This document shows, in pieces, positions 23,955 through 27,592 of a stretch of 50,633 nt of DNA. The notes under the pieces were generated by a model. It did no database searches, was not told the DNA's origin, and saw nothing but the letters and a program-made list of their open reading frames with translations. A program made the translations under genes and the position numbers. Every line of letters begins with the position of its first letter. The first letter of the stretch is position 1. This DNA is from Bacteroidetes bacterium HGW-Bacteroidetes-17 (GTDB lineage Bacteria; Bacteroidota; Bacteroidia; Bacteroidales; GCA-2711565). The stretch is taken from the NCBI GenBank assembly GCA_002840985.1, contig PHDM01000005.1, positions 1-50,633 of the forward strand. Direction: 5' to 3'.

Positions 23955-23986
23955 AAAAAAACAGCCCCCAAAGAGACTGCTTTTTT
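23955..23986. terminator. Possible terminator-like hairpin in the pgi/kinase gap
   Basis: CAG/CTG core flanked by seven A's on the left and six T's on the right, with one mismatch in the stem. It lies upstream of the pgi promoter and belongs to no obvious transcript, so its role is unclear. Confidence 0.3.
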
Positions 23987-24104: not shown

Positions 24105-24150
24105 GTTAATGAACTTTAACAAACGTTAAAAAATGTTAAAAGACTGTAAA
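24105..24150 (+). promoter_or_regulatory. 10-bp-phased GTTAA boxes, candidate response-regulator site
   Basis: Hexamers GTTAAT (24105), TTTAAC (24115), GTTAAA (24125), GTTAAA (24135) and TGTAAA (24145) begin exactly 10 bp apart. They end 17 bp before the -7 element of the two-component operon. Such helically phased direct repeats are the usual form of OmpR/PhoB-family binding sites, so autoregulation is likely. Confidence 0.5.
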
Positions 24151-24167: not shown

Positions 24168-24175
24168 TACATTTG
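24168..24175 (+). promoter_or_regulatory. -7 promoter element (TACATTTG) for the two-component operon
   Basis: Exact TAnnTTTG with only 4 nt between its final G and the ATG at 24180. A leaderless transcript is predicted. Confidence 0.55.
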
Positions 24176-24179
24176 CAGC

Positions 24180-25610
24180 ATGAATAAGAGGCTTATAATT
24201 TTCATTATTATTTTAATGTCGGTGGCATTACTTGGATTAATGAGTATTCAGGTTTATTGGATCAGGAATGCCGTGATCGTAAAAGAAGCAGGTTTTGTAC
24301 AAAGTGTTAACGAAGCCATTTCAAATGTTGTGATAAGGCTCGAAAGAATTGAAAAAGTCAAGAATTTTCAAAATCCAATGCTTCGAAATTCAAGTAGATT
24401 ATCATTGAATAAATATTTTGATTCTATCAACAAACAATTTATTGATGAAATGTCGAAAATTACATCACTTCGTGAATATGAGTCCTTTAATCAAAAATCG
24501 ATCGCTACGCAACGTGAGTTCGGAAGTATGTTGCACCCGCCAAAGAAGCAGCCGATTGAAGAAAGAATAAATGAGCATCTATTGGATTCGTTGATCAAGT
24601 TTGAACTTACAAAATATGGAATCAATACGCAATATGAATATGGGGTATATAGCCCCGCTCGCTTTAATATGCTGATCCAAAAAACAGGAATGTATCCAAC
24701 AAAGCTATTGAGTGAAGAAAGCTTTCAGTTTGCACTTTTTCCAAGCGATATTCAAGGAAACCCGGATTTTCTAATGTTATATTTCCCAAATGAACAACGC
24801 TTTTTGATTAGTAAAATGTGGTTATTATTACTTCTCTCGGCTGTACTGATGTTAATCATTATTTTATCATTTTATACTTCTATTAGTACTATTTTCAAGC
24901 AAAAAAGGCTTTCGGTTATGAAGAATGATTTTATCAATAACATGACCCATGAATTTAAAACCCCAATTTCAACCATAGCACTTGTGTGCGAAGCATTAAA
25001 GGATAAGGATATCCAAAAAACAGAAGAGATTTATGATAATTATATAGGCATTATCAATGATGAAAATACACGGCTTAAAGTGATGGCCGAAAAAATATTG
25101 CAAACGGCCATTATCGAAAAAGGAAAACTGCATCTAAAAAAAGAATGGGTAGATATTCATGAGATTATCCTTGAAGATGTAAGAAAAATCATGATACAAG
25201 TTGAGAAAAAGGGAGGGAAAATCTATACTGATTTAAAAGCTGAGAATGTTAAACTTAAAGTTGATCCTTTGCATATTACAAATGTGATATTAAATTTGCT
25301 TGATAATGCCATGAAATATACTATTGAAGAACCTGAAATTTTAATTTCAACAATAGAAACAGATTCTGGCATAAAAATTAGTATTCAGGATAACGGAATT
25401 GGAATAAGTAAAGCAAATCAACGAAAAATATTTGATAAGCTTTATAGGGTTCCAACGGGTAATGTTCATAACTTTAAGGGCTTTGGATTAGGGTTAAGTT
25501 ATGTTAAAGCCGTCATTGACAAGCATGAAGGTAGTATTAAACTCACAAGTGAGTTAAAAAGAGGATCTACCTTTCAGGTTTTTTTACCTTACAGTGATCA
25601 AAATAATTGA
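24180..25610 (+). CDS. Sensor histidine kinase (RprX-like)
   Basis: Inner-membrane sensor with two transmembrane helices (residues ~5-27 and ~210-233) bracketing a ~180-residue periplasmic sensing domain. After a short linker without a clear HAMP domain comes the dimerisation region with phospho-acceptor His257 in MTHEFKTPIS. The ATPase domain shows the N box VILNLLDNAMKYT, the G1 box DNGIGI and the G2 box GFGLGLSYVKAVI. The layout matches RprX of Bacteroides, which pairs with RprY; the signal is unknown. The response regulator begins 3 nt after its stop. The operon is preceded by phased GTTAA boxes and a promoter that points to a leaderless start. Confidence 0.88.
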   Translation: MNKRLIIFIIILMSVALLGLMSIQVYWIRNAVIVKEAGFVQSVNEAISNVVIRLERIEKVKNFQNPMLRNSSRLSLNKYFDSINKQFIDEMSKITSLREYESFNQKSIATQREFGSMLHPPKKQPIEERINEHLLDSLIKFELTKYGINTQYEYGVYSPARFNMLIQKTGMYPTKLLSEESFQFALFPSDIQGNPDFLMLYFPNEQRFLISKMWLLLLLSAVLMLIIILSFYTSISTIFKQKRLSVMKNDFINNMTHEFKTPISTIALVCEALKDKDIQKTEEIYDNYIGIINDENTRLKVMAEKILQTAIIEKGKLHLKKEWVDIHEIILEDVRKIMIQVEKKGGKIYTDLKAENVKLKVDPLHITNVILNLLDNAMKYTIEEPEILISTIETDSGIKISIQDNGIGISKANQRKIFDKLYRVPTGNVHNFKGFGLGLSYVKAVIDKHEGSIKLTSELKRGSTFQVFLPYSDQNN

Positions 25611-25613
25611 TAC

Positions 25614-26306
25614 ATGGAACAACAAAAAGTATTATTAGCAGAGGATGATAAAAACTTAGGTACCATCTTACAATCTTATTTAATTGCAAAAGGCTATCCA
25701 ACTGATTTAAGCGCAGACGGTGAAGAAGCTTTTATCCAATTTAAAAAAAATGAGTATAGTATCTGTATTTTGGATGTAATGATGCCAATAAAGGATGGTT
25801 TCACCCTCGCAAAAGACATTCGCAATATCGATAAAGAAATTCCGATATTATTCCTGACTGCTAAAACTTTGCAGGAGGACAAACTCAAAGGATTTGAATT
25901 GGGTGCCGATGATTATATCAGTAAACCTTTTAGCATGGAAGAATTACTCATGCGAATGAAGGCAATCTTAAGAAGATCAGGCCAGAATGAAAACGTATCA
26001 AAAAATAGTATTTATAAACTTGGAAAATTCACGTTTGACTATAACAGACAGCTTTTGGTAATTGGAGAAGTTGATCAAAAATTGACCTCCAAAGAAGCTG
26101 AACTGCTAAAACTATTAAGTGAAAATTTAAATCAGGTACTTGACAGAAGTGAGGCATTAAATAAGATTTGGTACGACGACAGTTATTTTAATGCCCGTAG
26201 TATGGATGTTTATGTTACCAAACTTAGAAAGTATTTAAAGGCAGATCCAAACGTAGAACTTTTAAATGTACATGGTGTTGGATTTAAGCTGATAATTAAT
26301 AATTAG
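25614..26306 (+). CDS. OmpR-family response regulator (RprY-like)
   Basis: DNA-binding partner of the upstream kinase. The receiver domain (residues 1-120) has the acidic pair in LAEDDKNLG, phospho-acceptor Asp54 in ILDVMMPIKDG, the Thr of LFLTAKT and Lys in YISKPFSMEELLMR. The C-terminal winged helix (about 130-230) has YKLGKFTFDYNRQLL, LTSKEAELLKLLSENLNQVLDR and MDVYVTKLRKYLKADPNVELLNVHGVGFKL, as in OmpR/PhoB. Similar to RprY of Bacteroides/Porphyromonas. The stop overlaps the 3' end of the convergent beta-lactamase-like gene by 4 nt, so no terminator separates them. Confidence 0.93.
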   Translation: MEQQKVLLAEDDKNLGTILQSYLIAKGYPTDLSADGEEAFIQFKKNEYSICILDVMMPIKDGFTLAKDIRNIDKEIPILFLTAKTLQEDKLKGFELGADDYISKPFSMEELLMRMKAILRRSGQNENVSKNSIYKLGKFTFDYNRQLLVIGEVDQKLTSKEAELLKLLSENLNQVLDRSEALNKIWYDDSYFNARSMDVYVTKLRKYLKADPNVELLNVHGVGFKLIINN

Positions 26307-27493: not shown

Positions 27494-27592
27494 TTGCGGA
27501 TTTTTTGCATCAGCAAAGTTATCAGAATCGGTAAACACCTATACTTAAAACAGAAAAATTAACAGTTTTTAACCAAAATAAAGAGATAGGGA

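Follow-up and report, generated by a model that had tools for sequence, protein, structure and literature searches.

A conserved GTTAA direct-repeat array ahead of an RprXY-like operon: probable autoregulatory operator and predicted envelope quality-control regulon

The array of GTTAA repeats ahead of a kinase–regulator operon in the window (the whole stretch of DNA analysed, 50,633 nt) is most probably the operator through which an RprXY-like two-component system, one with a Cpx-like envelope-quality regulon, regulates itself, and would be bound head-to-tail by the operon's own OmpR/PhoB-type regulator. The conservation of the repeat, its spacing, its distance to the promoter box and its recurrence at other targets were observed directly; from these we infer the binder, the activation and a stress signal. 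The features of the region were as follows:

24105–24114, plus strand: half-site unit 1, GTTAATGAAC (hexamer GTTAAT), distal half of the weaker upstream pair
24115–24124, plus strand: half-site unit 2, TTTAACAAAC (hexamer TTTAAC), degenerate, one mismatch to GTTAA
24125–24134, plus strand: half-site unit 3, GTTAAAAAAT (hexamer GTTAAA), distal half of the conserved core pair
24135–24144, plus strand: half-site unit 4, GTTAAAAGAC (hexamer GTTAAA), proximal half of the conserved core pair
24145–24150, plus strand: TGTAAA, claimed fifth unit, two mismatches to GTTAA, without conservation
24168–24175, plus strand: −7 promoter box TACATTTG, fits the consensus TAnnTTTG
24180–25610, plus strand: RprX-like sensor histidine kinase gene, HisKA and HATPase_c domains
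25614–26306, plus strand: RprY-like OmpR/PhoB-type response regulator gene, presumed binder, receiver and Trans_reg_C (winged-helix) domains

The four units starting at 24105, 24115, 24125 and 24135 each showed at most one mismatch to GTTAA. The core of the array is GTTAA-N5-GTTAA at 24125–24139 (the N5 pair), 28 bp from the −7 box, and 24105–24124 forms a second pair, weaker than the core. The run with a period of 10 comprised four units in the 292-bp intergenic region, other periods from 6 to 15 giving one or two, and a four-unit run of this period was reached in 1 of 5000 Markov-1 shuffles of that region. The initial annotation had described five related hexamers 10 bp apart, ending 17 bp before the −7 element. 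The positions, four of the units and the 17 bp from 24150 to the box were confirmed, but TGTAAA is probably no half-site (IC of at most 0.16 in the fifth-unit columns, 20–24, of an alignment of 55 leaders with the N5 pair). A counterpart of unit 1, an exact GTTAA upstream of the core, was found at 20 bp in 14 of the 55 N5 loci and at 21 bp in eight more (22/55 at either distance), and 19 of the 55 have a counterpart of unit 2, a half-site 10 bp upstream of the core that departs from GTTAA at no more than one position.

The hexamer of unit 2 had been taken as inverted. Because TTAA reads the same on both strands, the orientation of TTTAAC may equally be direct, and in the aligned leaders it was seen as a weak direct unit. 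An inverted repeat of TTTAAC with GTTAAA was therefore not taken as a separate element, TTAAC-N4-GTTAA being present in 7 of 40 leaders vs. 28 of 40 for the direct pair. A further GTTAA-N5-GTTAA, at 25493–25507, lies inside the kinase coding sequence shortly ahead of the regulator gene and is probably due to chance. A terminator-like stretch, AAAAAAACAG...CTGCTTTTTT, was noted at 23957–23986; it is unusual in a divergent intergenic region.

The two genes form one operon, the 292-bp region ahead of which is divergent, and the RprXY arrangement, in which the kinase gene immediately precedes the regulator gene, was present in the window and in 39 of 40 relatives. In Flavobacterium psychrophilum TAnnTTTG is the −7 consensus and sits at −12 to −5, as stated in the available text of PMC9723704. 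With TACATTTG taken as −12 to −5, transcription would begin at the ATG, and the array would span about −75 to −41; since the box ends 4 bp ahead of the ATG, a transcript with little or no leader is predicted. The regulator scored 329.3 bits with the RprY model (NCBIfam NF051850), still the best named model (the next best gave 189.4 bits), but did not reach the cut-off of 370 and is therefore RprY-like, not RprY in the strict sense. The earlier designation of the operon as RprXY-like is right in this wider sense. The score with the CpxR model was 117.0 bits (cut-off 341), and the regulator is not a CpxR orthologue.

The regulator was searched for in 60 genomes, the window's own included, and matches at E ≤ 1e-60 were obtained in 53, of which 40 were taken down the score list (G042 was skipped and added later). 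Scanning of 130 bp in 40 leaders, those of the window and of the 39 relatives with a kinase gene directly upstream, showed GTTAA-N5-GTTAA in 28, so that alignment of orthologous upstream regions, suggested in the initial annotation, found the phased pair kept. In the same 130-bp leaders no GTTAA pair with N0–N4 or N6–N13 was found; N14 was present in one leader and N15, which corresponds to the further upstream unit, in 17. In 500 sets of Markov-1 shuffles of the 40 leaders the mean number with an N5 pair was 0.03 and the maximum was 1.

A larger collection of 169 loci was assembled by regulator similarity from the window, 40 relatives, 48 of 80 named-genome loci (admitted at ≥42% identity) and 80 more loci; 40 of the 169 had been picked from a survey of 296 genomes for different families. 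The 2.6 kb upstream of each regulator was scanned for a pair followed, after 24–31 bp, by TAnnTTTG. This arrangement was present in 82 loci, with N5 in 55 and N6 in 27, and the gap from pair to box was 27–29 bp in 52 of the 55 N5 loci and 26–28 bp in 26 of the 27 N6 loci. Pairs with N13 (one locus) and N15 (seven) were seen within those 82 loci and at no others, and no further spacing from N0 to N15 was found. The 32 other loci of the named-genome scan, with distant regulators, gave no pairs (some kinase starts were poor in that analysis). We regard the array as a genuine operator of a familiar type, conserved and very probably autoregulatory, to which the regulator is predicted to bind. The proposal that it is an autoregulatory site is supported: orthologous operons are preceded by phased pairs with a single exact spacing, and the interval from pair to −7 box is fixed.

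In the window's own genome GTTAA-N5-GTTAA was found at 21 places, 15 of them intergenic. A reversed-pattern control was set aside, as its composition differs and it gave more matches than the pattern, and other spacings were used instead. Over 16 spacings 310 pairs were counted, a mean of 19.4 per spacing vs. 21 at N5, and genome-wide over-representation of N5 pairs was therefore rejected. Their location differed: 3 of 20 control-spacing pairs were intergenic vs. 15 of 21 N5 pairs (Fisher p = 0.0004), the controls (N4, N7–N12) being taken in list order from 100 places listed of the 310. Since the N5 count is unremarkable, number alone gives no support for a regulon; location and conservation support one. 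The genome search for 10-bp pairs proposed earlier was in this way uninformative by count and informative by position.

The intergenic N5 sites include those ahead of this operon, of two other kinase genes (the paralogous one and a third), and of genes for a MoxR ATPase and an HtrA-type protease; further sites precede an S41 protease, signal peptidase I, an HlyD-type protein and outer-membrane proteins. No phosphate genes were among the own-genome N5 sites examined. A second intergenic site in the window is a candidate member of the regulon:

27559–27573, minus strand: second intergenic GTTAA-N5-GTTAA, 66 bp upstream of a minus-strand beta-lactamase-family (serine hydrolase) gene

At the third, different sensor kinase (own genome C8, L301 694–708; also G001, L059) the site GTTAATTAAGGTTAA lies 28 bp ahead of TAnnTTTG, and a similar site was seen at G003:C56:13128.

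HtrA and MoxR also surfaced as pattern matches in other genomes. For each of htrA, moxR, S41 and lepB, loci for 30 of the matches were used; left out of the upstream counts were the query genomes L241 (htrA) and L271 (moxR), the own genome L341 (S41) and L371 (lepB), and L242, L287 and L397, which had no usable upstream region. An N5 pair was found within 250 bp upstream, on either strand, of htrA in 15 of 28 relatives, of moxR in 16 of 28, of S41 in 6 of 29 and of lepB in 5 of 28; five of the six S41 matches and four of the five lepB matches came from the window's own genus. The 15 other spacings combined gave 11 matches over the four sets, and N5 pairs upstream of other genes in the same loci numbered 0 of 137 (1 of 34 in a smaller control set). 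An operator common to the operon and htrA/degP, as in a Cpx-like system, was found in the own genome and in those 15 of 28 relatives. Three moxR leaders (L291, L293 and L299) have two reversed N5 pairs in tandem, 22–23 bp apart.

The moxR pair tracked the operon pair (12/14 vs. 3/9, p = 0.023, with the own genome and the query genome G046 included). For htrA the same trend was seen, 13/19 vs. 2/6 with the own genome included, and was not significant (p = 0.18). In both tables G023 owes its pair-positive score solely to an overlapping N5 found in a leader of subfamily B. These results point to a predicted envelope protein quality-control regulon around the N5 pair, which is newly proposed here, and they strengthen the suggestion that the array would supply a recognition sequence for RprY-like regulators: the 10-bp pair recurs at htrA and moxR, and pair spacing follows the regulator subfamily.

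On a tree of the 169 regulators the N5/N6 split corresponded to one change, vs. a mean of 22.8 changes with shuffled N5/N6 labels and 0 of 500 shuffles as low as one; the deep N5/N6 branch is weakly supported (18), and kinship among the sequences makes any label cluster. Regulator positions 26, 108 and 159 fully separate the N5 and N6 sets and are read as correlates of ancestry. Both kinds of system are present in the own genome, once each: the N5 system of the window and an N6 paralogue at C103 (L161), in whose leader the half-site is also GTTAA. In 16 of the 27 N6 loci exact GTTAA was found 10 and 21 bp further upstream, giving an 11-10-11 tetrad; since this holds a central N5 pair, it argues against complete insulation of the two systems. 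In four Flavobacteriaceae leaders (L108, L109, L112 and L121, 4/4) a third GTTAA, possibly an extra half-site, abuts the −7 box besides the 11-bp pair.

No pair with a −7 box was present in 87 of the 169 loci; in 17 of the 87 the regulator gene is not immediately preceded by a kinase gene, and in 18 the leader does contain an N5 pair, with no box fitting the −7 consensus at the proper distance. In one clade of 13 members, which holds the best RprY matches and includes genome records of Prevotella (L084), Bacteroidaceae (L090) and Porphyromonas (L111), no N5 or N6 pair was found within 2.6 kb. Three members were scored against the RprY model; two were above the cut-off and Porphyromonas was just below. 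The absence of the pair from the clade with the best RprY matches indicates that the arrangement does not extend to all true RprY members; L098 (Carboxylicivirga), above the RprY cut-off, has the pair. An operator remnant in this clade was considered and rejected, since in its N14 pairs (4/13) the first unit is part of a −7-like box (GTTAAttttg or GTTAAatttg) and the second is a further GTTAA after it. In these four leaders (L035, L042, L048 and L050) GTTAA merges into the −7-like box and the next GTTAA lies 19 bp on, possibly a repressor arrangement.

A split between paralogous regulators by 10- or 11-bp spacing is possible from these sequences. The fuller scheme is put forward tentatively: Bacteroidota might have two paralogous RprXY-like systems with one half-site, GTTAA, told apart by 1 bp of spacing, subfamily A with a 10-bp pair and subfamily B with an 11-bp pair in an 11-10-11 tetrad, the interval between the proximal half-site and the −7 box being constant. 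Subfamily A would serve a Cpx-like envelope regulon (htrA, moxR and its own operon), and the Bacteroides/Prevotella/Porphyromonas-type RprY clade would have lost or rewired the autoregulatory site.

The pair runs along the gene at the own operon and is mostly reversed at moxR, htrA, S41 and lepB. Distances from pair to TAnnTTTG fell in helical steps, 28 and 49 bp for forward and 22–23, 32–33, 42–43 and 54–56 bp for reverse pairs. No consensus box lay in range at 14 of 17 htrA sites and at 6 of 6 lepB sites listed, so that the helical stepping is seen chiefly at the operon, moxR and S41. An activator that binds one face of the DNA would require phasing of this kind. The simplest mechanism would be OmpR-like positive autoregulation by one or two head-to-tail dimers of the phosphorylated regulator. 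One dimer of the regulator encoded at 25614–26306 would bind the GTTAA half-sites of the core, and a second would occupy 24105–24124 more weakly. The half-sites, one helical turn apart between about −75 and −41 from the predicted start, would adjoin RNA polymerase, and the phosphorylated regulator would most likely activate its own near-leaderless promoter. Through the 10-bp pair it would also act at htrA and the moxR operon and, in this genus, at the S41 protease and signal peptidase I, the resulting regulon being one of envelope protein quality control that works like Cpx.

That the own regulator binds the array and represses its promoter, and perhaps the targets too, is unlikely but deserves consideration. 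P. gingivalis RprY, which binds its own promoter, is termed a possible repressor in the available part of PMC3646045, and the target sites, mostly reversed and at several distances from the promoter, would suit repression; at the own operon, however, the core ends 28 bp short of the −7 box and leaves it uncovered, and the helically stepped distances are as expected of an activator. We consider it decidedly less probable that the main binder of the array is some other OmpR/PhoB-type regulator, such as the paralogue at C103 or a PhoB-like protein. The paralogue's own leader uses GTTAA and tetrads of its kind contain an N5 pair, and one genome (G054, 96% complete) has pairs at htrA and moxR with no regulator match at E ≤ 1e-60; yet the spacing switches a single time on the tree, in step with the operon's own regulator, and paralogue leaders have N6 beside the −7 box.

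Explanations by chance, by a nucleoid-protein site or by a general AT-rich feature of promoters are strongly disfavoured. TTAA is indeed common (564 occurrences in the window), and N5 pairs are no more numerous genome-wide than those at other spacings, but the pair was nearly absent from the control upstream regions (0/137 and 1/34) and from the shuffled leaders (mean 0.03 of 40), and at these operons the spacing is N5 or N6 only. Activation by the operon's own regulator is the reading preferred here.

The Bacillus subtilis PhoP box, which consists of direct TTAACA repeats with a period of about 11 bp at phosphate genes, resembles the array in its TTAAC-type half-site and direct repeats and differs in period and in the phosphate genes. 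At least two direct-repeat half-sites at 10–11 bp and a regulator with receiver and winged-helix domains, as in OmpR/PhoB-type operators, are present here. OmpR binds two tandem 10-bp half-sites (available text of PMC7380067), and the WalR/VicR site is given as TGTWAH-N5-TGTWAH, on either strand, in the part of PMC4168254 at hand. The array shares with the OmpR, PhoB and WalR/VicR operators the head-to-tail binding on direct repeats (here predicted) and differs in its GTTAA half-site and in the use of 10 and 11 bp by paralogous subfamilies within one phylum. The CpxR box is GTAAA-N5-GTAAA, and degP/htrA was among the first known Cpx targets (PMC12802237, available text). The direct repeat, the 10-bp period and the degP/htrA target (here predicted) are common to both; in contrast, the half-site here is GTTAA, the phylum is another and the kinase sensor is another, and the system would work like Cpx and is not Cpx.

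The likeness to RprXY of Bacteroides fragilis and Porphyromonas gingivalis lies in the best named model, the kinase–regulator operon and the presence of P. gingivalis RprY on its own promoter; the differences are the score below the cut-off and the clade with the best RprY matches, which is without the pair. The available portions of PMC3646045, PMC6032018 and PMC5706477 contain no RprY binding motif or consensus, and searches of open-licence literature yielded no recognition sequence for RprY-like regulators, no report of the pair and no Bacteroidota regulator with such repeats.

RprY-like regulators are widespread in the class, with a match at E ≤ 1e-60 in 242 of 296 genomes. For these regulators the pair provides a concrete candidate operator and a small predicted regulon with envelope protein quality control at its centre. 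Paralogous regulators that would differ by one base pair in half-site spacing offer a natural experiment, and the family at large may be arranged differently from the clade that contains the RprY proteins studied so far.
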